25,672 bases of DNA, taken from positions 1-25,672 of the IMG/VR virus record IMGVR_UViG_3300020222_003330; one strand, 5' to 3'. The stretch is from a virus. Positions 2 to 25,672 of this stretch are shown one piece after another (position 1 is the first letter of the stretch; each line of letters begins with the position of its first letter). The notes beneath the pieces were generated by a model that was given only the letters and a program-made list of their open reading frames with translations, was not told the DNA's origin and did not search any database. The position numbers and the translations under genes are program-made.

Positions 2-226
2 GATTTTGACACAGCAAAGGATTTTTCGTTCCCAGACGACATCTTCACCCACGGAGCCGTTTTCATCGCAAAAGTGTCCGACAATCCAAACCAGCTCAGC
101 GCGGGCGCGGGCGGACTTTACAAGCTGAGCCAGATCGACGTGTATCGCCGAGAGAAAGAAGTTATTGCGTTGGGAGACATCAGAGACCACAAGGTGATTT
201 GGGGAGATCAAAAGTCTTATTTTTGA
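2..226 (+). CDS. ADP-ribosyltransferase-like protein, C-terminal end (partial, cut by left edge)
   Basis: The frame is open from the window edge to a TGA at 224-226, giving 74 residues of an incomplete protein. It matches the C-terminus of the complete protein at 992-1981: both have a hydrophobic strand, then DNP, then LYKL, then a charged turn (REKEV here, EEEV there), then LGDI and a final xKxxW. In arginine-type ADP-ribosyltransferases (R-S-ExE class) this turn carries the catalytic ExE motif, and here E-K-E fits it. The N-terminal R and STS motifs would lie outside the window. The sequence shows paralogy; the enzymatic role is inferred from the full-length paralogue. A tagged N-terminus like its neighbours' is expected but cannot be seen. 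Confidence 0.6.
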   Translation, partial: DFDTAKDFSFPDDIFTHGAVFIAKVSDNPNQLSAGAGGLYKLSQIDVYRREKEVIALGDIRDHKVIWGDQKSYF

Positions 227-227
227 T

Positions 228-308
228 TTGTCTCCGCCCGAGGCGTATAGTTATACCCCGTGAAGATACGATTAGACGAATTACGCAGAATCATCAGAGA
301 GACTCTGG
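228..308 (+). repeat. Duplicated promoter-plus-tag block, copy 1
   Basis: This stretch, from GTCTCC through the box, the start codon and the first 16 codons, is nearly identical to 3322-3402. Over the coding part only two positions differ (the first base of the start codon, and one A/G at codon 14). It points to recent duplication or recombination of the whole expression-and-targeting cassette. Confidence 0.75.
232..254 (+). promoter_or_regulatory. Late-type promoter candidate: inverted repeat plus TATAGTTAT box
   Basis: CTC-cgccc-GAG at 232-242 is followed after 3 nt by TATAGTTAT at 246-254, and the GTG start lies 5 nt further on. There is no Shine-Dalgarno. If the box acts as a -10 element, transcription would begin at or near the start codon. 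The same arrangement with a different stem sequence precedes several other tagged genes. Confidence 0.5.
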
Positions 309-982
309 TGGAGGCGAAGGGCAGCCCTGTTAAGAAAGCCCCTACGAAGACTCCCGTGAAGAAGGCTAGCACCAAGAAGCAAGGCGGGGGCGAGCCTGCT
401 CTAGCAGTTGAAGACCAGGGCGATTTCCGCCTCTTCGTGCTGTACAATCCCGACGAGATGTTAGATCTGTACAGTACAATTGACGACGAGAAATTCAACC
501 CGGGATACGCTAAGGAGCTCGTGCCGAGCCTGTACGGCGTGATCATGGTCGGCAAGACTAAAAGGCACACGGACAAGTCGGGTGCTAAAATGATTCGTTA
601 TGTACACGCGCGGTCGGGCTACGGACCCAAGATGTACGACATCGCCATGGCAGAGATGGGAGGCATATACGGAGATCGCGACCAGTTCACACCTGAAGCG
701 GAAAACATATGGCGATTCTACAAGGACAAACGCCCGGACGTTGTCAACAAACCTCTCAGCGGTGAGAACATCATGGATATTGATATAGACAGGGAAGAAA
801 ATCCGAATCACCATCTTAATCAGGCTTATTTTTTAAAAGGACCCGGACCCAACATTGAAGCCATGAAAGCGAACCACAACAAGTTCTTGAGTGACAAATC
901 GAGACAGGCGAAGAAGAACGGTAAAGAAGATTGGGAATTTTCTTTTGCCGACCTCACGGATCCCTTCTCACGGAGCCGATAG
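260..982 (+). CDS. Tagged, probably capsid-packaged protein; possible GNAT-like domain
   Basis: This 240-aa protein uses a GTG start fixed by the shared tag MKIRLDELRRIIRE at residues 1-14. Residues 15-20 (TLVEAK) offer an LVE/A site of the type cut by T4-like prohead proteases. Residues 20-43 are a Lys/Pro/Thr-rich basic linker that could contact DNA. The rest is a globular domain with GYGPKMYDIAMAEMGG, DRDQFTPEAENIW and a YKDKRPDVV segment. I associate that pattern with a phage domain sometimes annotated GNAT-like, but I cannot confirm this. The last 50 residues are polar and lysine-rich. The next gene starts 9 nt after the stop. Packaging in the head is inferred from the tag; the catalytic function is uncertain. 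Confidence 0.8.
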   Translation: MKIRLDELRRIIRETLVEAKGSPVKKAPTKTPVKKASTKKQGGGEPALAVEDQGDFRLFVLYNPDEMLDLYSTIDDEKFNPGYAKELVPSLYGVIMVGKTKRHTDKSGAKMIRYVHARSGYGPKMYDIAMAEMGGIYGDRDQFTPEAENIWRFYKDKRPDVVNKPLSGENIMDIDIDREENPNHHLNQAYFLKGPGPNIEAMKANHNKFLSDKSRQAKKNGKEDWEFSFADLTDPFSRSR

Positions 983-987
983 TTATT
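967..987 (+). promoter_or_regulatory. Late-type promoter candidate inside the end of the upstream gene
   Basis: CTC-acg-GAG at 967-975 is followed by GATAGTTATT at 978-987, 4 nt before the ATG at 992. It overlaps the last codons of the preceding gene, so the promoter-like block is kept even inside coding sequence. Confidence 0.45.
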
Positions 988-991
988 CCCC

Positions 992-1981
992 ATGAAGATT
1001 CGGTTGAGTGAATTAAGAAGGATGATCCGCGAGGCGGCGCGTGAATCGTCTTTTGACAGGGTGTTTCAGGAGCTGGAAGCTATGTCAAAGAAGGTCGATT
1101 CGAATGTGTCTCGGTCAGTGTTGGTCGACGCCCTGACGCTATTCCTGAAAGTCAAAGATTCGCTCGTTCTCAAGGCCCGCGCGAGCGGGCTCGACGCAGG
1201 AGAGCTCGCCGAGTTCGTGGACGTCTACAGGGGATTCACTCGAGGCAAGATCTTACTCGGCGACGAGTTGCTCGACGCGGTCAAGCTGAAGATCGACAGA
1301 GCGCAGAGGTCTGCTGATCCGGAGACGGTGGTCGATGACGCTAAGTTGATGATGAAGAGCCTCGTCAAGATGTCGGCTGCTCTGAGCAAGTTCGACGACG
1401 TAGAAGAGGAGGCACCTGAAGGTTCGCCCTTGGGTAAATTCGCGTTTCCTCTGCGGCGGAGGGGTAAACCACCGGAGCCCGACACCCCCGAAGAGAAGCG
1501 GATGTACAACGCGCTTGTGGCACACTTCGCCGACAATATAAAGCTGAACGCAAAGGCCGCCATGGGCATCAAGGACATGTTGTCACAGGGTCTGTACCCA
1601 GAGGTTTTTTCTCCCCCCGGTCAGAAAGAGGTCTTCCGCGGCATGAGTGTCAGCAAAGCGTGGTTATCGAAGACGCTCGGCGTGGCTGCGAAGGACATCC
1701 CGGAGAAGGGTAGCAAAGAAGTCGAAATGACCTACACGCCTCGGGGCGGAAGTGGATCTTCGTGGACTGTCAATAAAGAAATCACCAGCAAGTTTTTTAG
1801 AGATCCGTCGCGAGTCGGCGTCGTGCTTCACGCGAGGACTGCAGACAATCCTAGCAACTTTGTCATGGGAACCGATCACCTCTACAAACTCGACTTCATC
1901 GCAGGATTTGCTAACGAAGAAGAAGTAGTGGGACTGGGCGACATCAAGGTCTACAAAATTAGCTGGATAGACGAATCTTAA
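992..1981 (+). CDS. Capsid-tagged R-S-ExE ADP-ribosyltransferase
   Basis: This 329-aa protein begins with the shared tag MKIRLSELRRMIRE. The following A gives an IRE/A site suitable for a prohead protease. Residues 20-150 are helical and of unknown role. The C-terminal half shows the three ADP-ribosyltransferase signatures in order: VFRGMS with Arg216, an SSWT strand at 256-259 (STS-type motif) followed by a KFF segment, and EEEV at 309-312 with Glu309 and Glu311 as the ExE pair. Enzymes of this class move ADP-ribose from NAD+ to arginine. T4 Alt is a packaged and injected member that modifies host RNA polymerase, and this is the natural functional model. The C-terminus is paralogous to the partial gene at 2-226. 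Fold and motifs are seen; target and packaging are inferred. Confidence 0.75.
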   Translation: MKIRLSELRRMIREAARESSFDRVFQELEAMSKKVDSNVSRSVLVDALTLFLKVKDSLVLKARASGLDAGELAEFVDVYRGFTRGKILLGDELLDAVKLKIDRAQRSADPETVVDDAKLMMKSLVKMSAALSKFDDVEEEAPEGSPLGKFAFPLRRRGKPPEPDTPEEKRMYNALVAHFADNIKLNAKAAMGIKDMLSQGLYPEVFSPPGQKEVFRGMSVSKAWLSKTLGVAAKDIPEKGSKEVEMTYTPRGGSGSSWTVNKEITSKFFRDPSRVGVVLHARTADNPSNFVMGTDHLYKLDFIAGFANEEEVVGLGDIKVYKISWIDES

Positions 1982-2021: not shown

Positions 2022-3185
2022 CTAGGCAGTCACGGCGCCCTTGAGGCTGGATCCGAAGCCGCCGGCCATCTTGATTCGAAATGTGAATAGTTTTCCGCCT
2101 GCTGAGCTGACAAAAGTTATGCCACTTGACCCTGCTGCTTCAGCAGTCAATTTGGCACGAGGCGTAGATAAGTGTAGCGCAACTGCAGCCGCGGCGCTCG
2201 GTGGCTTGATTACAGCACCACCTAGCTTTTTGCCAAATACGACCTTGAACGGGGGGTTTGGCAGATCCGGCACGACACTTCGAAGAAACTGTTCGACTAG
2301 GTCTTTTGATCCGCGCGTGACAAGCCTCTGCTGTATTGCAGCCAGCAATACATCTCTTGTGCCACTTTGAACTTTGTCATATAGTCCCTTGCGCTTGGCG
2401 ACTTCTCTGTAATCCTTTTTCTCTTCAGACGACATGTCACTGAAGCCCGGCACAGCTTTGTTCATGTCTTTGATGGCCGAAGCATAGACGGCTGCGACTT
2501 GAGGTGACCTCACACGAATGCCGTTTTTGAGCGGAAAACCCGCAAGTATCTCGAGCGAAGCTAGACTCGGATTGCTAAAATTAGAAGCGGCTCCGGCAGT
2601 TGCCTTTGCGCTATATCCAATTGCCGTCCCGTCATCAGTTTCAACCACGAAGTCTGAGGGATTTTTTCGACTAACTTTTGTTTCCGGTTGCACGAAATCA
2701 GCTAAATCGGCACCCCTGTCAGCAGTCCAAAATGCTTCTCCTCCACCGCAGTCCTGAAGTGCTGCCATGCCCATCGCGCTTCCTCTCGCAAGTTCCCCTG
2801 CAATATAAACAGAAGCTTCCTTTTTGCTATAACCTGCAGCTAGAGCTTTTGTCAGCACTTCCTGAAAACGTTCCTCAATAACACTCGAAGCAGATCCGCC
2901 TTTCGCATATGAGGCGACATCGCTAGCGTTAACTGGGCTTTTCTTGTTCACTGTCGCAACTGCTGCAATTTCATTGATATCGGACGAAATTGTAAGTGCA
3001 TTGCCCACGATGTCGTGTGCCAATTTAGTAAAGACCGTCCAGTCGGGCGCAGGGACATCGAGCGGCGCGCTGCTCTTCAAGTCTACTTTCTTAGCCTGCG
3101 AAGCTCTAGCTTCCCAAATTTTACTTCTGACGTACTCTCTCAAGAGGTCATGTTGAACTAGTTTTTTAATTGACATCGTGGACAC
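2022..3185 (-). CDS. Tagged protein with possible PD-(D/E)XK-like nuclease motif
   Basis: This 387-aa protein has a GTG start at 3185; an ATG three codons later is the alternative. The N-terminus SIKKLVQHDLLREYVRSKI is a divergent form of the tag, followed by WEARA, an IWE/A cleavage candidate. The centre reads ADLADFV, then NPSDFVVE, then IGYSAKAT. A conserved-looking Asp178 with S-A-K at 192-194 resembles the D...(D/E)xK core of restriction-like nucleases, except that the acidic residue is replaced by Ser. Some phage nucleases read GxSxK there. The C-terminal third is Gly/Ala/Lys rich. It lies opposite to its tagged neighbours, and its promoter faces the promoter at 3325. A packaged nuclease is plausible but speculative. 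Confidence 0.75.
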   Translation of the reverse strand: MSTMSIKKLVQHDLLREYVRSKIWEARASQAKKVDLKSSAPLDVPAPDWTVFTKLAHDIVGNALTISSDINEIAAVATVNKKSPVNASDVASYAKGGSASSVIEERFQEVLTKALAAGYSKKEASVYIAGELARGSAMGMAALQDCGGGEAFWTADRGADLADFVQPETKVSRKNPSDFVVETDDGTAIGYSAKATAGAASNFSNPSLASLEILAGFPLKNGIRVRSPQVAAVYASAIKDMNKAVPGFSDMSSEEKKDYREVAKRKGLYDKVQSGTRDVLLAAIQQRLVTRGSKDLVEQFLRSVVPDLPNPPFKVVFGKKLGGAVIKPPSAAAAVALHLSTPRAKLTAEAAGSSGITFVSSAGGKLFTFRIKMAGGFGSSLKGAVTA

Positions 3186-3321: not shown

Positions 3322-3402
3322 TGTCTCCTGCCCGGAGCGTATAGTTATTCCCCATGAAGATACGATTAGACGAATTACGCAGAATCATCAGGGAGACTCT
3401 AG
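3322..3402 (+). repeat. Duplicated promoter-plus-tag block, copy 2
   Basis: This is the partner of 228-308. It covers the inverted repeat, the box, the start codon and the tag codons at near identity. Identity ends where the mature protein sequences begin to differ, which supports the idea of an exchangeable cassette. Confidence 0.75.
3325..3349 (+). promoter_or_regulatory. Late-type promoter candidate
   Basis: CTCC-tgccc-GGAG at 3325-3337 is followed by TATAGTTATT at 3340-3349, 4 nt before the ATG at 3354. Compared with the copy at 232-242, the two sequences differ but both keep base complementarity in the arms. Confidence 0.5.
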
Positions 3403-3683
3403 CGGACGTCCCCGCCAAGTGGGATGAGCTGCGGGAGGATCCCTACATCGCGGCTGTGATCAGCGCGGGCGACCCGAAGGAGCTAGCAGCAGCGAAGCGC
3501 CGGTACACGAAGGACGACGACGCGGGTCTGCCGGTGCCCTCCGCTGGTGCTTTCTTCTTCTGGCACGACCGAAGAAAAGCGGAGCTCGCAGCTATGGGAC
3601 CCGCCGCGGCGCGCGGTAGGGCTGATCTCATCCTCCGGCAGCGGACGGGGTCAGGCAAAGCCATCCCCAGGAAGATGAGCTGA
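3354..3683 (+). CDS. Small tagged, probably packaged protein
   Basis: This 109-aa protein starts with MKIRLDELRRIIRETL, identical over 16 residues to the tag of the protein at 260. The body is Ala/Arg/Lys-rich with no domain I recognise. Segments include PAKWDELREDPYIAAV, KRRYTKDDDAG and FFWHDRRKAELAAMGPAAARGRADL. Base composition is clearly richer in G+C than the AT-rich genes further right. Its codons 20-27 recur as the untranslated 24-bp repeat at 1993-2016, so another copy was once present. Only the targeting is inferred; function is unknown. Confidence 0.75.
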   Translation: MKIRLDELRRIIRETLADVPAKWDELREDPYIAAVISAGDPKELAAAKRRYTKDDDAGLPVPSAGAFFFWHDRRKAELAAMGPAAARGRADLILRQRTGSGKAIPRKMS

Positions 3684-4448: not shown

Positions 4449-4784
4449 ATGAAGATACGAATGAGCGATTTACGTAGAATTATCGGGGAGACAGTGGCAG
4501 AAACGATGGTGTCGAAAGACAGTCCGTTAACTGTGTGGCCGAAAGTTGGACCGTCTGGTGATTTGATGTGGATCGTTAAAGATTCTGTGCAAACCGCGGT
4601 GATTGATACTTCGAGCGGTGAAGTTCATGGTAATTTTACGGGAGGAAGTGATGTCTTCGCTACAGTTGTGGGTGCGTTGCAGGAGTGGTATGCCGTGGAT
4701 CGAGAGTCGTACGATGGTGAGAACATCGAAAAGGTGAAGGCTGAGTTGAACAGTTACACTGACCGTGAAGGTATGATAAGGTGA
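4449..4784 (+). CDS. Small tagged, probably packaged protein
   Basis: This 111-aa protein carries the tag MKIRMSDLRRIIGE; the following TVAE/T could be a processing site. The mature part looks like a compact alpha/beta domain: LTVWPKVGPSGDLMWIVKDS, a VIDTSSGEVHG turn, FATVVGALQEWYAV, then a charged helix. No family is recognised. It sits at the right end of the tagged-gene block, ahead of cysteine synthase. Packaging is inferred from the tag only. Confidence 0.75.
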   Translation: MKIRMSDLRRIIGETVAETMVSKDSPLTVWPKVGPSGDLMWIVKDSVQTAVIDTSSGEVHGNFTGGSDVFATVVGALQEWYAVDRESYDGENIEKVKAELNSYTDREGMIR

Positions 4785-4882: not shown

Positions 4883-5758
4883 ATGGAATTCAAGAAAAAT
4901 TGTGGCAATACGCCGTTGATCAAGGTCGCCGATAAGTTGTACGCGAAGCTGGAAACATACAATCCGACCGGGTCCGTCAAAGATAGAATGATCTCGTATG
5001 TCGTCGATAAGGCGATTGAGGATGGAGTCCTGACCCCGGGAACGACGGTGTGTGAGGCGACGAGCGGCAATTCTGGAATATCTCTTGCCGCAGTTTCGGC
5101 TGCGATGGGGTCGAGGTGCGTCATCTTCATGCCGAGCAACATGTCGGAAGAGAGGAAGCAGATGATGCGCGTCTATGGTGCCGAGGTGGTGGAGGTTCCG
5201 CCCAGCGACTTTGAGGGCGCGATTCGAGCCCGAGACGAATTCTTGGTTGCCAACCCAGGTTCTTGGTCGCCGCGCCAATTCAGCAATGCAGACAATGTGG
5301 AGTGCCATCGGGAGGTGACTGGGCCTGAGATTGCGATGAGGTTGTGGTTGATGAACGAGCAATGGGCGGCTTTCGTCCACGGATCTGGTACTGGTGGTAC
5401 TATCGAGGGAATCAGGCAGTACACTCGATGTGCGGATGGTTTCATGAAGAATAACGAGATCTTGCCGAAGATTTGCATGGTCGTTCCCGCCGAATCTCCC
5501 CACGGTATCCAGGGTATTGGCGACGGCCGAGACTTCCTGGCAAAGCAGAGTGACATGGACGAGGTCATCGTTGTTTCTACCGAGGAGTCTATCGAGAGGG
5601 CGAAGCGATTTGCCAGGGAGACGGGCTTGTTGGTTGGAATAAGTTCTGGTGCAAATCTTGTTGCAGCCGAGCGGTGGATGTCCTGTAACAATCCTGCCGG
5701 CGTGGTTGTCACGATGTTGTGCGATCGCGGTGAAAGATATATGTCAGTATACGGCTGA
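4883..5758 (+). CDS. cysK: Cysteine synthase (PLP-dependent O-acetylserine sulfhydrylase family)
   Basis: This 291-aa protein is a little shorter than usual for the family (about 300-320). It makes cysteine from O-acetylserine and sulfide. The hallmarks are GNTPLIKV near the N-terminus, NPTGSVKDRM with Lys33 as the PLP Schiff-base lysine, EATSGNSG at 58-65 (substrate loop), GSGTGGTIEGI (phosphate-binding glycines), AESPHGIQGIGDG, and GISSGAN near the C-terminus. CysK and CysM subtypes cannot be separated by eye. The ATG start fits the family N-terminus. There is no adjacent Shine-Dalgarno, and the GAGGAGG further up is too far away. A Fe-S carrier gene 0.6 kb downstream suggests a shared sulfur/Fe-S theme. 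It is unusual cargo for a phage. Confidence 0.93.
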   Translation: MEFKKNCGNTPLIKVADKLYAKLETYNPTGSVKDRMISYVVDKAIEDGVLTPGTTVCEATSGNSGISLAAVSAAMGSRCVIFMPSNMSEERKQMMRVYGAEVVEVPPSDFEGAIRARDEFLVANPGSWSPRQFSNADNVECHREVTGPEIAMRLWLMNEQWAAFVHGSGTGGTIEGIRQYTRCADGFMKNNEILPKICMVVPAESPHGIQGIGDGRDFLAKQSDMDEVIVVSTEESIERAKRFARETGLLVGISSGANLVAAERWMSCNNPAGVVVTMLCDRGERYMSVYG

Positions 5759-8205: not shown

Positions 8206-8712
8206 GTGAAGATAAGATTGAGCGAATTAAGACAGTTAATCCGACAAGCGATTAGCGAAAATATTCAAGAAGAGCTAATTGACCACACGCTATCTCACGA
8301 GAGTGCAGTGGTATTAGAAGATTCAGATCCAGCAAAGGGTCGAGGGAAAAAGCCCGCGGGTTCAGATAGACGTTTGTATACTGACGAAGATCCAGGCGAT
8401 ACAGTTCGTGTCAAGTTTTCATCAGCGAACGCTATCAAGAATACCTTAGCAAAGAAATCTTTCAAGGCAAAATCGCACGCCCGACAATCGCAAATCATTA
8501 ATTTAATTCACCAAAGAACACGTACAGCTCACGGTCGAGCGAAAGATCCAAAGGTGAAGGCACGATTAGGGCGAGCTCTAGATTATGCAGAGGAGCGCAA
8601 GGAAGCATCGAAGCGTAAGACGAAACGCATGCGAGAGTGTGAAGAACTAATACTGAGTTTGCTGGAAAGAATGTCTGATAGTCAAGACGTGGAAAACTGC
8701 GACGTTACTTGA
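8206..8712 (+). CDS. Tagged, basic, probably packaged protein
   Basis: This 168-aa protein starts at GTG 8206, so that the product begins MKIRLSELRQLIRQ, matching the shared tag; an upstream TTG at 8200 breaks this register. AISE/N and NIQEE could be processing sites. Residues 50-170 are strongly basic (KGRGKKPAG, AKKSFKAKSHARQSQ, RTRTAHGRAKDPKVKARLGRAL, KRKTKRMRE), as expected of a DNA-associated internal head protein. No enzymatic motif is seen. It is followed closely by a small SH3-like gene. Confidence 0.75.
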   Translation: MKIRLSELRQLIRQAISENIQEELIDHTLSHESAVVLEDSDPAKGRGKKPAGSDRRLYTDEDPGDTVRVKFSSANAIKNTLAKKSFKAKSHARQSQIINLIHQRTRTAHGRAKDPKVKARLGRALDYAEERKEASKRKTKRMRECEELILSLLERMSDSQDVENCDVT

Positions 8713-10837: not shown

Positions 10838-11467
10838 TCACATAGTGGGCAACCAGTGACCCATTCTATCCCGCTTTGAAATTAAATATGATTTTGAATA
10901 AATATTCGTGGAACACACGATGCTTTTTCTCTCAGCACGCACACCGCAATTTTTGATTGCTTCCAGCTTGAGAGGATTGTTGGTGAGCAGCTGTATGGAC
11001 GCCACACCCAAGTGCTTGAGCATCTCTGCAGCGGAGGTGTAGTCTCTCATGTCGTCGGGCAGACCTAAGCGTCGATTTGCGTCCACAGTGTCGTATCCCT
11101 CTGACTGTAGTTTGTAAGCTCGAATCTTATTAGCTAGACCGATTCCTCTGCCTTCCTGCCTGAGATACAATAACACGCCCTTACCTGCTTGAGAGATCGT
11201 CTGCTGCGCCTCAAGAAGCTGCTTGCGGCAGTCACACTTCAGCGAGCCGAACACCTCGCTCGTGAGGCACTCGGAGTGAACTCGGACAAGCACACCTTCT
11301 TCACCCTGGAGTTTACCCATCGTGAGTGCGATGTTATCTCGTGAGAGGCCGCAATCGAATCCTGTTTTGTTCTCATCTTCTTCCCAGCGGAACACGTGCA
11401 TGTTAAACGTTCCCCACTCTGTGGGAACAGGTGCAGAGGCTAATACTCGTAATCTATTTATTTCCAT
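10838..11467 (-). CDS. ribA: GTP cyclohydrolase II
   Basis: This 209-aa protein is of normal length for stand-alone RibA, which opens GTP to the first pyrimidine intermediate of riboflavin synthesis. All signatures are present: VRVHSECLTSEVFGSLKCDC with the three zinc-binding cysteines, LRQEGRGIGL, the YDTVDANRRLGLPDDMRDY region, LLTNNPLK, and a C-terminal KRDRMGHWL. It is the II type, not FolE, so it is not the entry point to queuosine or folate. GTAAT and ATTAC arms lie upstream of GATTCTATC next to the start codon. No other riboflavin gene is in the window, so it would boost the host pathway or feed another pterin-like or modified-nucleotide route. Confidence 0.95.
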   Translation of the reverse strand: MEINRLRVLASAPVPTEWGTFNMHVFRWEEDENKTGFDCGLSRDNIALTMGKLQGEEGVLVRVHSECLTSEVFGSLKCDCRKQLLEAQQTISQAGKGVLLYLRQEGRGIGLANKIRAYKLQSEGYDTVDANRRLGLPDDMRDYTSAAEMLKHLGVASIQLLTNNPLKLEAIKNCGVRAERKSIVCSTNIYSKSYLISKRDRMGHWLPTM

Positions 11468-13851: not shown

Positions 13852-14304
13852 ATGAAAATTAAAAAAGATCAATTACAACAGCTAATTCGTGAAGAATACG
13901 TCAAAGTCGTATTTGAATCGCAGGGGCGTAATCTCACAGCTTCGCAAGCTAAAATTATAGCAGAGAATCTTAATGAGGGCTTCTTTGACGATATTATGAA
14001 ATCTTTCAAGTCGTCGGGCAAAGAAAGTAGTGATCAGCAAGGAAAAAACGAGGCTGCAGTAGTGAAAACAGAAGAGCAGCTTAAAAAAGAGATCATGATG
14101 ATTCAACAAAAAGCCAAAGACATGCTAGAGTCTAACGGCTTTGAGGGAGACGAAAACGATGTTGCCGTTCTTGGAATTGATCTATTCCGCGCAGCTGTAG
14201 AAGAAGTCATGTCAGCAAGTAAAATTGCGGGACCTGTTAAATCTGCAGGGAGACGTGGGATCGGTTCAGGTAGATACAGTCCGTTAGGGCGCATGGCTCG
14301 CTGA
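13852..14304 (+). CDS. Tagged, probably packaged protein with a second processing motif
   Basis: This 150-aa protein has a divergent tag, MKIKKDQLQQLIREEYVKVV. A second shared motif follows at about residues 40-52, ENLNEGFFDDIMKSFKSS, which parallels ILREGFFDSLASFFRSK in the protein at 20343. LNE/G and LRE/G both fit the T4-type prohead protease rule, so the mature protein could begin GFFD. The remainder is a charged helix, then DVAVLGIDLFRAAVEEV, and a basic Gly/Arg tail (SAGRRGIGSGRYSPLGRMAR). The gene ends at a strong terminator. Packaging is inferred; function is unknown. Confidence 0.75.
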   Translation: MKIKKDQLQQLIREEYVKVVFESQGRNLTASQAKIIAENLNEGFFDDIMKSFKSSGKESSDQQGKNEAAVVKTEEQLKKEIMMIQQKAKDMLESNGFEGDENDVAVLGIDLFRAAVEEVMSASKIAGPVKSAGRRGIGSGRYSPLGRMAR

Positions 14305-14851: not shown

Positions 14852-15781
14852 TTAGACGATGGACAGACCGTGTTCTTTCACGGCCAGTTCGATAGCCCAA
14901 TTCTTCATCTTGAACTCCATCTCTACATCTACCTTGCTGAGCACTGCACGTTGTTCCTTGGGAACATAGTGGACCCAGTCTGAGTGGGCTCGCCGTTTAG
15001 AAGCCGGTGCCTCTGCAGGAATTTCAGGACTTGTATTTGATAGATGCTGCAATGGCTTGATGCCGCGCCAAGTGCTAGACGCGAGCTCGATGACTTCATT
15101 GAGGTTTAAGCCACCTGTTCGAAACGTATGATGGTGGACGTCGAGCACGATGGGAACACCCGTTGCGTCACACACGGGCTTTAGATCTGCAGCACTGTAA
15201 GCATTCTCGCAGTTCTCGAGTGTGAGTCTTGATCGAATGTGATCTGGCAGTCTATTGATCTCTCGAATGAGATTATCGGGTCGACCTCCTTTACCTCCGT
15301 GGATGTTGATCGCGTAGAAGGGCGATCTGTCTAGATCCATTGCTTCCATGATCCACGCGTGCGTCTCAAGGTCACCCGCCGCGTTCTTCACGACGCTAGA
15401 GGAGTCTGATGAAAGAACGACAAACTGACCAGGATGCATAGTGATGCGTACACCTTCGCGTTTAGCTAGGTCACCAAACTTCCAGTATCGCTCACGAAGC
15501 TTGTCGTTGTCCCACCAGTGTCGAGGAACCTTGTCAGCGAGCGGAATCAGATTAGAAGAAACACGAAAGCACTTGTAACCATCGCTAACAACTCGACGGA
15601 ATGCGGTGAGGAGATTATCAGCATTGCTGAGGTAAACATGTTTGATTTCATCTTCTGAATACTTTCCCTGGTTCCATCGACCCAGCTGCAGGATGCGCTC
15701 GTCGAAGATATTTTTCTGTTTTTCGATGCCTCGAGGAGATCGCTCGAGCTCGACGTATTGACAACAAAGTCCTAAAGCCAT
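14852..15781 (-). CDS. uvsE: UV DNA damage endonuclease (UVDE/UvsE family)
   Basis: This 309-aa protein is the usual length for the bacterial enzyme, a TIM-barrel nuclease that nicks 5' of pyrimidine dimers and other lesions using divalent metals. The signatures are FRVSSNLIPLA, ITMHPGQFVVLSS (metal-binding His), INIHGGKGG, LTLENCENAYS (Glu/Asn) and VPIVLDVHHH (Asp and His ligands). The C-terminal SDWVHY region is also typical. The upstream sequence has TATACAGTACAGTACAATAC before the ATG and no Shine-Dalgarno. It joins other repair genes in this window (glycosylase, PolX-like, FEN). It probably allows repair of phage DNA without host factors. Confidence 0.94.
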   Translation of the reverse strand: MALGLCCQYVELERSPRGIEKQKNIFDERILQLGRWNQGKYSEDEIKHVYLSNADNLLTAFRRVVSDGYKCFRVSSNLIPLADKVPRHWWDNDKLRERYWKFGDLAKREGVRITMHPGQFVVLSSDSSSVVKNAAGDLETHAWIMEAMDLDRSPFYAINIHGGKGGRPDNLIREINRLPDHIRSRLTLENCENAYSAADLKPVCDATGVPIVLDVHHHTFRTGGLNLNEVIELASSTWRGIKPLQHLSNTSPEIPAEAPASKRRAHSDWVHYVPKEQRAVLSKVDVEMEFKMKNWAIELAVKEHGLSIV

Positions 15782-16496: not shown

Positions 16497-16572
16497 GCCA
16501 CCTTAGCTCAGTTGGCAGAGCATCTCACTTGTAATGAGAATGTCGCCCGCTCGGTTCGGGCAGGTGGCTCCA
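16497..16572 (+). tRNA. tRNA-Thr (UGU)
   Basis: A full 76-nt cloverleaf with encoded CCA. The acceptor is GCCACCT/AGGTGGC, the D-arm GCTCAGTTGGCAGAGC, and the anticodon arm TCTCA-CTTGTAA-TGAGA with anticodon TGT. The variable loop has 5 nt, and the T-stem is GCCCG/CGGGC. The T-loop is CTCGGTT, not TTCRANY: T54 and A58 are replaced by C54 and G58, while T55, C56 and purine 57 are kept. The rest is canonical, so it is probably functional. Confidence 0.9.
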
Positions 16573-16574
16573 GC

Positions 16575-16660
16575 GGGATGATGCCCGAGAGATTAAAGAG
16601 GAATGGCTGCAAACCATTTGACTCAAGACTACGGCAGTTCGAATCTGTCCCATCCCACCA
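16575..16660 (+). tRNA. Class II (Tyr-type) tRNA with GCA (Cys) anticodon
   Basis: An 86-nt tRNA with encoded CCA, 2 nt after tRNA-Thr. The anticodon arm is AATGG-CTGCAAA-CCATT, so the anticodon is GCA (Cys). The long variable region (TGACTCAAGACTAC), the CCCGAG...TTAAAG D-arm, the G1-C72 pair and discriminator A73 are those of bacterial tRNA-Tyr; normal bacterial tRNA-Cys is class I with U73. Deviations: A7-C66 mismatch, D-stem C11-A24 mismatch, and GA in place of the GG of the D-loop. The T-arm GGCAG-TTCGAAT-CTGTC is normal. It may be a retargeted or decaying Tyr tRNA. Confidence 0.8.
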
Positions 16661-20669: not shown

Positions 20670-20703
20670 TACTAAGTAAAATTTGTTTGTAGGATTACTT
20701 CTC

Positions 20704-21753
20704 ATGAGAAGATATCCGGGTTTCCTTAACGAACTACAACAGCAAATAGAGGGATTGCATCCTGAAATTCTTGAAAGAATTTCTCGATATGGTGGCCTAG
20801 ACGTCCAAGATCTAATTTCTTTGATCTTAGAACCCAAAGATCACTCTGTTGACTGCCCGGAAACTGTCGATCCAGGCGAAATATTTCAGCATGTTGAGCT
20901 TGAGTCTTATGAAGCTTTAGGTAGAGAGCTAATTGACAAGAACTCAGTTGCGCTATGCATACTAGCAGGCGGCGCCGGCACCAGAATAGGTGGCTCAAAG
21001 TGCATGCTTAATTTATTTGAGGGTGAGACACTTCTTTCACATAAGATTAGAAAAAACTCGCATGTAAAAAATATCTGGATTATAGTTACTGAGTCGCTGT
21101 CTAATATTGTTCAAGATCATTTAGAAAATATTAGATTAATGCGAGACGGGATTGAGTTGGTACTTCAATACGAGTCTGTGCGCTTAACACCAGACAATCA
21201 ACTTTACACAAATAAAGACGGCCCAAGTTTGTACCCTTGCGGACACGGTGATGTCATTCCTGCGCTAGACAGCTCTGGGCTTTTAAAGAAATTCACTGCT
21301 TCTGGTGGTAGGCACGTCGTCATAGTTAACGTTGACAATGTTTCTGCAGACATCGACGCTGCTATCTTGGGTTTGCATCATGCGAATAATGTTCCCGTCA
21401 CGTGCGAAGTTGTGAGAAAATCTGAAAATGACAAGGGTGGCATGTTATGCAAACACAGCGGCGTAAATCAGATTGTCGAAGAATTTAGAATGACTCCTGA
21501 ATCAGACGTTACTCAGTTTCAGCTGATGAACACCAATACGATGATAGTTAAGTCTGATCTTGATTTCAGCATGATAGATTGGCATTGGCACAGAGTCAAG
21601 AAAAATCTTGATGGAAGTTTGGTCATACAGCATGAAAGGCTTTTGCAGCAGCTCACAGAGCATTTTAAGACACAGTATGTCGAGGTTCAACGGGACAGAA
21701 GATTTACGCCGATAAAGAGCGCGTCAGATCTTGATAAGATCAAGCAGGCATGA
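20704..21753 (+). CDS. UDP-sugar pyrophosphorylase (UDPGP family)
   Basis: This 349-aa protein uses ATG 20704, which has AGGA about 10 nt upstream; a TTG at 20683 adds seven residues. The nucleotide-binding signature LAGGAGTRIGG (87-97) with Lys99 is followed by YPCGHGDVIPALDSSGLL and VVIVNVDNVSADID, as in eukaryotic-type UDP-glucose and UDP-N-acetylglucosamine pyrophosphorylases. It would make a UDP-sugar from UTP and a sugar-1-phosphate. Which sugar cannot be told by eye. The protein is shorter than eukaryotic members and lacks their C-terminal beta-helix. It overlaps the DNA glycosylase gene by ATGA, raising a link to DNA modification. Confidence 0.85.
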   Translation: MRRYPGFLNELQQQIEGLHPEILERISRYGGLDVQDLISLILEPKDHSVDCPETVDPGEIFQHVELESYEALGRELIDKNSVALCILAGGAGTRIGGSKCMLNLFEGETLLSHKIRKNSHVKNIWIIVTESLSNIVQDHLENIRLMRDGIELVLQYESVRLTPDNQLYTNKDGPSLYPCGHGDVIPALDSSGLLKKFTASGGRHVVIVNVDNVSADIDAAILGLHHANNVPVTCEVVRKSENDKGGMLCKHSGVNQIVEEFRMTPESDVTQFQLMNTNTMIVKSDLDFSMIDWHWHRVKKNLDGSLVIQHERLLQQLTEHFKTQYVEVQRDRRFTPIKSASDLDKIKQA

Positions 21754-24353: not shown

Positions 24354-25672
24354 TCATGAATCCCTCCACAAATTATTTGCGGCAAAGATTAATATCTCTT
24401 CTGCGGATTCCGGAGAATACGAGTAAGTTTTTATCATAGTTTCAACCATATCACTGTACTTCTTCTGTTGATCATCATTCCTAGTTTTTGACTTAGTCAC
24501 TATTCTTGCCATTGTCCGCACAGAAGAAATCAAATAAGATTCAATTGCATTCTTAAGTGGTTCATAAGTAGAGTAAATAACTTTTTCGCCTCGCCTCATT
24601 TTTGCAAACATGTATGCTGTGACGTCAGATCGGAAGCCGTCCTTTGCAGAGCCAGTAACACCGATTTGTTCTTCAATGGAAATCATAAATTGTTCATCAG
24701 GCTTTCGTTCTTCTTTTGTGACTTTGTCTTTTAGCTTCGTTCTCGTGGTGTGAGCTTCTGCGTTATCAAGATAAGACTCAAACAACGATTGTGCTTGCTC
24801 CTCGTAAGCTGAGATGAATGCTTTTGCGATCTCATTCTCGAGAATCTTTAGATATTCTTCGCGAATTGTCTTCTGGAGGAGTTCAAGGCACTTTGACTTA
24901 AACTGTTCATCCACAAGCTGTTCTTTTACCATCTTCGTCAATGAATCCATGACGGAGATCGGTGTAATCATATTCTTATCAGATGCTGTGAGAGCATTAT
25001 CGAGAGCCTTAGTTATGAAACGAGTTGAGATGCCGTCCATGCCCTCATGCTTCGCCTCTTCGCGTAGGTCTTTGATGTCGACCTTGCGCACTCGCCCTTT
25101 TTCAAGAACATCTTCGCCGTTGTAGATCTTCATCTTCGTGAGGATATCACATTTGGCAGAATCTTTAAGACGACTCATCACCGAGAACATTGAAGCAATC
25201 TTTAAGGTATGCGGTGCGATGTGCGATGTGAATTCAGATTTACCCAACATCTTCTCGTAGATTTTTATCTCCTGATTGAGTTCAAGACAGTAAGGTACAG
25301 ATATCTTCACAATGCGATCCATGATGGCTTCATTTGTGTGTTCTGACTTAAATCTGTTCCATTCGGCCTCATTGCAGTGAGCGAGGATGACACCGTCGAA
25401 GTGCAACATGTCCGACTTGCCAGGTGAAGGAACCCTCTTCTCTTGGGTTGCCGTGATGATGGTGTGGAGGAACTCGATCTCGTTCTTGAAGACCTCGACG
25501 AGCTCGACGACGCCCCGGTTGCCCACGTTGAACGCACCGTTTAGTGAGAGTGAGCGTGGATCATCCTCGGCAAACTTGTCGAGCTTCGAGATGTCGACTG
25601 ACCCGATGAGGACCGAAACGTCTTGGGAGTTTGCATCCATCGGAGGCACAGAAGCGACGCCCCGACGGCCAC
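24354..25672 (-). CDS. prkA: PrkA serine protein kinase, C-terminal part (cut by right edge)
   Basis: The frame stays open to the window edge (GRRGVASVPPMDANSQD across 25672-25620), so the N-terminal AAA+ portion is missing; about 438 residues are visible out of roughly 640 in the family. The text from VLIGSVDISKL through GVVELVEVFKNEIEFLHTII and DGVILAHCNEAEWNRF is the hallmark of PrkA/YeaG. This protein pairs an AAA+ core with a kinase-like C-terminal domain and responds to stress and starvation in bacteria. In bacteria it usually neighbours YeaH and SpoVR genes, which may lie beyond the edge. It is an unusual phage gene and could alter host stress state. A homing endonuclease follows it. 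Confidence 0.92.
   Translation of the reverse strand, partial: GRRGVASVPPMDANSQDVSVLIGSVDISKLDKFAEDDPRSLSLNGAFNVGNRGVVELVEVFKNEIEFLHTIITATQEKRVPSPGKSDMLHFDGVILAHCNEAEWNRFKSEHTNEAIMDRIVKISVPYCLELNQEIKIYEKMLGKSEFTSHIAPHTLKIASMFSVMSRLKDSAKCDILTKMKIYNGEDVLEKGRVRKVDIKDLREEAKHEGMDGISTRFITKALDNALTASDKNMITPISVMDSLTKMVKEQLVDEQFKSKCLELLQKTIREEYLKILENEIAKAFISAYEEQAQSLFESYLDNAEAHTTRTKLKDKVTKEERKPDEQFMISIEEQIGVTGSAKDGFRSDVTAYMFAKMRRGEKVIYSTYEPLKNAIESYLISSVRTMARIVTKSKTRNDDQQKKYSDMVETMIKTYSYSPESAEEILIFAANNLWRDS

Follow-up and report, generated by a model that had tools for sequence, protein, structure and literature searches.

What do the ADP-ribosyltransferase (ART)-like genes at the start of the IMG/VR virus record IMGVR_UViG_3300020222_003330 encode, and where are their products sent by the short N-terminal tag that at least one of them carries? 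We analyzed all the sequence available for that virus, 25,672 bases (the window), and centred on the complete 329-residue protein encoded from position 992 (the 992 protein) and its truncated neighbour at the record edge. An initial annotation, made from the letters of the sequence, had described the two as an adjacent pair of ART-like genes and had suggested an expanded family of injected effectors. Both open reading frames (ORFs) carry ART motif residues, and the partial one resembles the C-terminus of the 992 protein as that annotation had said, but the two are not strictly adjacent: a third tagged gene lies between them (Table 1). The Arg, Ser and N-terminal regions of the partial ORF fall outside the record, so that its own tag cannot be checked. 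Taking all evidence together, we consider it probable that the 992 protein and its truncated neighbour represent a new R-S-ExE ART family that has undergone expansion and whose members are packaged in the phage head, trimmed and injected.

Arg216, the Ser256-Ser257-Trp258-Thr259 stretch (SSWT) and Glu309-Glu310-Glu311 (ExE) are present in the 992-1981 ORF with the numbering given by the initial annotation. Relatives were reached through the PrkA-like gene at 24354-25649, from which we found 80 related loci; the records that contain them are up to 361 kb long. Homologues of the 992 protein were found in records that we designate G009 (58% identity, E 3e-69), G015, G023, G034, G043, G044 and G073, and the family profile had members in 10 of 32 records. 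Across alignments of 17 family members gathered from these related large-phage records, E309 and E311 were invariant and R216, G217, S257 and W258 were conserved in at least 90% of sequences, in proteins that are otherwise 21-55% identical to the 992 protein; an alignment of all members was too diverse to serve for a contig scan. Because the motif residues are among the few (nearly) invariant columns of so divergent a family, the R-S-E pattern is not due to chance. Within the R-S-E clade an ExE motif usually means transfer to arginine, as in Alt of phage T4 and related enzymes, and by this analogy the 992 family is most likely arginine-specific.

The predicted structure points in the same direction. 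An AlphaFold (AF2) model of the ART domain on its own reached a mean predicted local distance difference test score (pLDDT) of 89.0 and a predicted template modelling score (pTM) of 0.83. Arg216 is predicted to lie in the first core strand (213-220), SSWT occupies a following one (255-259), and ExE stands at the start of the next strand pair, where it opens strand 311-315; this is the layout of R-S-E ARTs. When Foldseek candidates were re-aligned by VIA with the domain only, 49 of the 50 matches listed were recognised ARTs, the remaining one being CC0527, an uncharacterised protein. VIA Z values were about 8 for KptA/Tpt1 (best 8.3), 7.6 for the Rhs toxin TreX, 7.1 for pertussis S1 and 6.8 for Vis (126 residues; aligned length for Vis up to 136 residues), and TreTu, cholera/LT A, SpvB and SdeC were other ARTs among the matches listed. 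The near-unanimity of these structural matches, together with the motif, is the basis of our confidence, and the model supports an ART fold for the domain. Thus, both the predicted fold and the motif residues of homologues, which the initial annotation had named as the points on which ART identity would turn, agree with that identity.

Searches by sequence gave no such recognition. The 992 protein alone returned nothing useful from Pfam, PHROGs, PDB, viral contigs or annotated phages; the family as a sequence profile was not recognised in Pfam, PHROGs, NCBIfam or PDB, and none of its 17 members had a Pfam match above chance. The Pfam exotoxin-ART model ADPrib_exo_Tox (PF03496) matched none of nine genomes at E<=1, and a trace of SidE_mART in one member (E 0.075) was the sole sequence-family match to R-S-E ARTs. 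Weak matches to DUF2357, designed helical bundles, ribosomal S16 and a transposase PHROG were dismissed as chance. Alignment by hhalign against a T4 Alt family of nine homologues from annotated phages gave a probability of 3.4% over 24 aligned columns. Because of this low value, and because curated families gave no match, the 992 family is not assignable to the Alt family; kinship with T4 Alt itself, which the initial annotation had cited for comparison, was undetected by sequence profile or by the Pfam exotoxin-ART model. By its motifs it appears to be an ART of the Alt kind in its presumed working.

Between tag and ART domain the 992 protein has a helical stretch, residues 18-136, which was modelled with low confidence and which, in keeping with the initial annotation, has no match elsewhere in any fetched locus. 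VIA relatives of this stretch (designed bundles, CAMP factor) were left unused as common arrangements. In the ART of G009, the closest homologue, the tag is joined directly to the ART domain, and we therefore regard the helical stretch as a lineage-specific insertion.

The tag itself is a short conserved N-terminal segment common to otherwise unrelated proteins, with the consensus MKIRLSELRRxIRE (MKIRLSELRRMIRE and variants of the type LRxLIRExLLxE), and would form a basic amphipathic helix; it is sometimes internal or repeated. ORFs with the tag among their first 30 residues numbered 30 of 334 in G044, 20 of 326 in G009, 9 of 287 in G043 and, close variants included, 7 of 44 in the window, where shuffled sequences gave expectations of 2.5, 3.3, 2.5 and 0.4, respectively. 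Every ART homologue with a resolved start carries it; the G043 ART has it internally, immediately ahead of the ART domain. In G023 (locus L108, near 8270-8330) tag and ART domain are encoded in different frames that overlap, and a split between frames is also seen in the G034 homologue; these splits are either real frameshifts or assembly errors.

Two features tie this tag to the phage head. The cleavage site of the T4 prohead protease has the form L/I-x-E, and an (L/I/M)xE site occurs in 50 of 62 tags compared with 19% of random windows. A T4-type S77 prohead protease scored above the Pfam cut-off in 10 of 13 records, all of them relatives of the window, and in all 10 genomes checked the protein just downstream of this protease starts with the tag, here of the form LKxIVKECLVEILxEG. 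The tag thus belongs to the head gene cluster, and among the present arguments for a head-targeting propeptide like the T4 capsid targeting sequence this one is the strongest. Since this address also occurs in the head-building cluster, the tagged proteins probably enter the phage head as cargo and are injected for chemical modification of the bacterial host. The capsid tag and injection proposed in the initial annotation are accordingly backed indirectly, by tag enrichment, (L/I)xE sites and the tagged neighbour of the protease, and packaging itself is what we infer from these. In the three head clusters read fully, those of G009, G043 and G044, a second small tag-like protein follows the first; the capsid protein has an LxE site near residue 60. 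The prohead protease ORF of G044 (570 aa, 88364-90076, locus L136) is interrupted by a long insertion that resembles an intein, with Cys at its start (CVPPGTEILT) and WTGN at its end, before the next Cys. For the gp23-like capsid protein of G009, the closest matches were the capsid proteins of Microcystis phage Mel-JY01, an uncultured phage and Flavobacterium phage immuto, and that of Rhodothermus phage RM378 matched as well; head genes of this sort place the clade near the Far-T4 phages. Phage immuto, which is cultured, has a few tag-like N-termini, for example immuto35A_190 (L179:2287-3045) starting MKKSQLRQIIKEALDA, and the tag is therefore open to laboratory testing.

Tagged genes are also distinguished by what precedes them. 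An ATANWTA element lies at most 26 nt from the start codon of 6 of the 7 tagged genes in the window versus 6 of 32 untagged ones, and 5' of the start of 11 of 16 tagged versus 33 of 237 untagged genes in G009; the starts at 260 and 992 have no obvious Shine-Dalgarno sequence. These elements are possibly late promoters with very short leaders. The pattern holds in the window and in G009 and fails in G044 and G043, in which tagged genes abut or overlap in arrays.

Expansion of the family, a further proposal of the initial annotation, is strongly supported by G044 (257 kb), which has ten paralogues, at about 180-186, 228-234 and 253-254 kb. They group together in a tree, weakly supported as a whole and well supported in parts, and five of the ten end in leucine-rich repeats. 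The same phage has six copies of a second tagged family, YHGT...YGKGLY (at 1-2011, 181405-182730, 186168-187190 and 254095-256475), a candidate H-Y-E-type ART by its motif; five of these copies have leucine-rich-repeat ends and the sixth is cut by the record end. The repeat units in the G044 tails are 60 bp of DNA. The tagged gene between the two window ARTs, whose body is unrelated to ARTs, has six homologues (E 4.5e-40 to 8e-18), of which G044 has five and G043 the other; several belong to tagged-gene arrays or adjoin them. In G043 such an array (229-241 kb, locus L167) comprises tagged genes for a GNAT protein, a poly(A)-polymerase/CCA-type enzyme, a DUF192 protein and ARTs; several tags lie inside or at the end of proteins, some before later domains, as if these were polyprotein modules separated by cleavable tags. 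A broader reading, which we advance tentatively and rate a little short of an even chance, is that this Far-T4-like clade loads dozens of enzymes into its head by one transferable tag, sometimes internal and repeated, much like the effector repertoire of a secretion system, and that ARTs are its most duplicated cargo, of two unrelated types with the same tag and interchangeable, target-setting leucine-rich-repeat tails.

Several observations weigh against this family being packaged R-S-E ARTs. Foldseek on its own was weak, with no E-value below 0.001; the VIA values, at 8.3 or less, are in the middling range by the tool's own scale; the top VIA matches are to KptA, an ART of the H-H-h clade and not of the R-S-E clade; the Ser motif, with the consensus S-S-W-[TS], differs from the textbook STS; and no sequence profile links the family to any known ART family. 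Furthermore, the window record is fragmentary and lacks head genes, a search for virion proteomics on this phage or its relatives, the cultured immuto included, found none, and the tag could serve another purpose. The weak Foldseek scores and the lack of a curated family match might suggest a fold unrelated to ARTs in which R, S and E coincide by chance, which is highly improbable given the conservation of these residues across divergent homologues and the near-unanimous ART matches. It is also very unlikely that these proteins are direct orthologues of T4 Alt that ADP-ribosylate RNA polymerase alpha: they have the same catalytic triad and E-x-E-V-[IL] block, and both are tied to a head with a T4-type protease, yet the hhalign comparison found next to no relationship, the Alt-like N-terminal half is absent, and ten diverged copies in one phage speak against a single conserved target. 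Unlikely, to a lesser degree, is an enzyme that has kept the ART fold and acts as an NADase, or has DNA, RNA or a small molecule as its substrate in place of arginine in proteins. KptA/Tpt1 as the best VIA matches would suit such an enzyme, as would the presence of NAD+ phosphorylases (RES) among R-S-E relatives (PMC9503650); however, RES enzymes have lost S and E, whereas an intact ExE, as found here, characterises arginine-modifying R-S-E enzymes, Alt among them.

The ARTs might, on the other hand, not be virion cargo at all: the tag would then be another kind of address (to the host membrane, a replication compartment or as a chaperone-docking helix), and the enzymes would act inside the infected cell like T4 ModA and ModB, which act there after their synthesis (PMC9503650). 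The missing proteomic evidence for packaging is compatible with this, as are the 12 of 62 tags that have no clean (L/I/M)xE site. We nevertheless judge it rather improbable, since the tag recurs on the protein beside the prohead protease in every genome checked, a T4-type protease is present with (L/I)xE enriched in tags, and late-promoter-like elements stand at tagged starts in the window and G009.

For packaged and injected ARTs, the preferred reading, the following course of events can be proposed. At a late stage of infection a large T4-related ('Far-T4'-like) phage would produce mono-ADP-ribosyltransferases of the R-S-E clade, and the N-terminal tag would dock each in the growing prohead core. 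A T4-type prohead protease would then cleave after (L/I)xE, within the tag or immediately behind it, and the enzyme so trimmed would be packed with the DNA and injected together with it. In the new host it would carry out ADP-ribosylation, dependent on nicotinamide adenine dinucleotide (NAD+) and most likely of arginine, of at least one host protein, and relatives that duplicate and diversify the gene and add leucine-rich-repeat tails would probably widen or shift the set of targets.

Parts of this scheme have precedents. T4 Alt and the T4 internal proteins carry a capsid targeting sequence of 10-20 aa that is removed by the prohead protease, and T4 and giant-phage prohead proteases cleave after glutamate in short motifs (PMC5694885). 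Like the tag, the T4 sequence is N-terminal, short, common to unrelated proteins and provided with an (L/I)xE site; unlike it, the tag has another sequence (T4 IPI in the T4 record begins MKTFKEFTSTTTPVSTITEA), is sometimes internal or repeated, and has a putative head role deduced from its gene context. With Alt the 992 family has in common the R-S-ExE active site and E-x-E-V-[IL] block, a T4-type prohead protease in genomes related to the window and the concept of a short N-terminal propeptide (PMC5694885), whereas it is half the size, has a different tag and no detectable sequence-profile relationship, and comprises up to ten paralogues per genome, some with leucine-rich-repeat tails. Bacterial R-S-E ARTs (Vis, SpvB, Tre1, the SdeC mART, pertussis S1 and the cholera/LT A chain) resemble it in predicted fold and active-site layout; the 992 family differs in being phage-encoded with a putative head tag. 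Phage ARTs are often packaged, about 44% occurring in contexts that suggest it, and both ARTs packaged in myovirus heads and multi-domain injected (polyvalent) proteins have been described (PMC9503650), which the 992 family would resemble if packaged. In those cases packaging is deduced from MuF/portal fusion or gene neighbourhood (PMC9503650), whereas here a short transferable N-terminal tag stands on many separate genes and the ARTs form paralogue arrays.

Packaged phage ARTs are thus already known, while the present family looks new, as do its tag and its arrays; we found no literature on this tag or ART family, within incomplete coverage and for a motif that does not lend itself to searching. 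T4 Alt is the main source of direct evidence for packaging of phage ARTs, and most other cases are deduced from fusion or neighbourhood. The present findings supply a family recognisable by sequence and a candidate head-delivery tag that predicts cargo genome-wide, with ten R-S-E ARTs and six YHGT-type candidates in one phage as the extreme case. What phages inject besides DNA becomes testable by motif scan and virion mass spectrometry, and a new set of candidate ADP-ribosylation enzymes is available for the study of host targets.

Table 1. ART genes, tagged genes and associated elements of the window. HMM, hidden Markov model.
Feature	Position	Strand	Remarks
Second ART paralogue, C-terminal 74 aa, start lost at record edge	2..226	+	40% identity to 992 protein residues 271-328, E 1.1e-9; family HMM E ~3e-16
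E-x-E motif of the partial ART ORF (E51-K-E53, kept)	152-160	+	
Putative late-promoter-like element TATAGTTATA	246..255	+	Directly 5' of tagged gene at 260
Tagged gene of another family, tag MKIRLDELRRIIRETL	260..982	+	Between the two ARTs
Putative late-promoter-like element GATAGTTATT	978..987	+	Directly 5' of ART gene at 992
Complete R-S-ExE ART-like protein, ATG start	992..1981	+	
N-terminal tag MKIRLSELRRMIREA with IxE site, putative head-targeting propeptide	992..1036	+	Tag enrichment, head-cluster occurrence
Lineage-specific helical region, residues 18-136	1043..1399	+	Tag-to-ART-domain stretch; low-confidence model
ART domain, residues 136-329	1397..1978	+	Predicted by model
Arg216 codon (strand 1 Arg of R-S-E ARTs)	1637..1639	+	Nearly invariant column
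SSWT 256-259 (Ser of the R-S-E triad)	1757..1768	+	S257-W258 nearly invariant
E309-E310-E311 (ExE; E311 predicted catalytic)	1916..1924	+	E309, E311 invariant in all aligned sequences
Gene with variant tag LLREYVRSKIWEA	2022..3185	-	
Tagged gene, tag MKIRLDELRRIIRETL	3354..3683	+	
Tagged gene, tag MKIRMSDLRRIIGETV	4449..4784	+	
Tagged gene, GTG start, tag VKIRLSELRQLIRQ	8206..8712	+	
Tagged gene, tag MKIKKDQLQQLIREEY	13852..14304	+	

Elsewhere the window has host-like metabolic and repair genes, namely for a cysteine-synthase-like enzyme dependent on pyridoxal phosphate (4883-5758), GTP cyclohydrolase II (10838-11467), a UV endonuclease (14852-15781) and a UDP-glucose pyrophosphorylase-like protein (20683-21753), together with tRNA-Thr and tRNA-Cys genes at 16497-16660.
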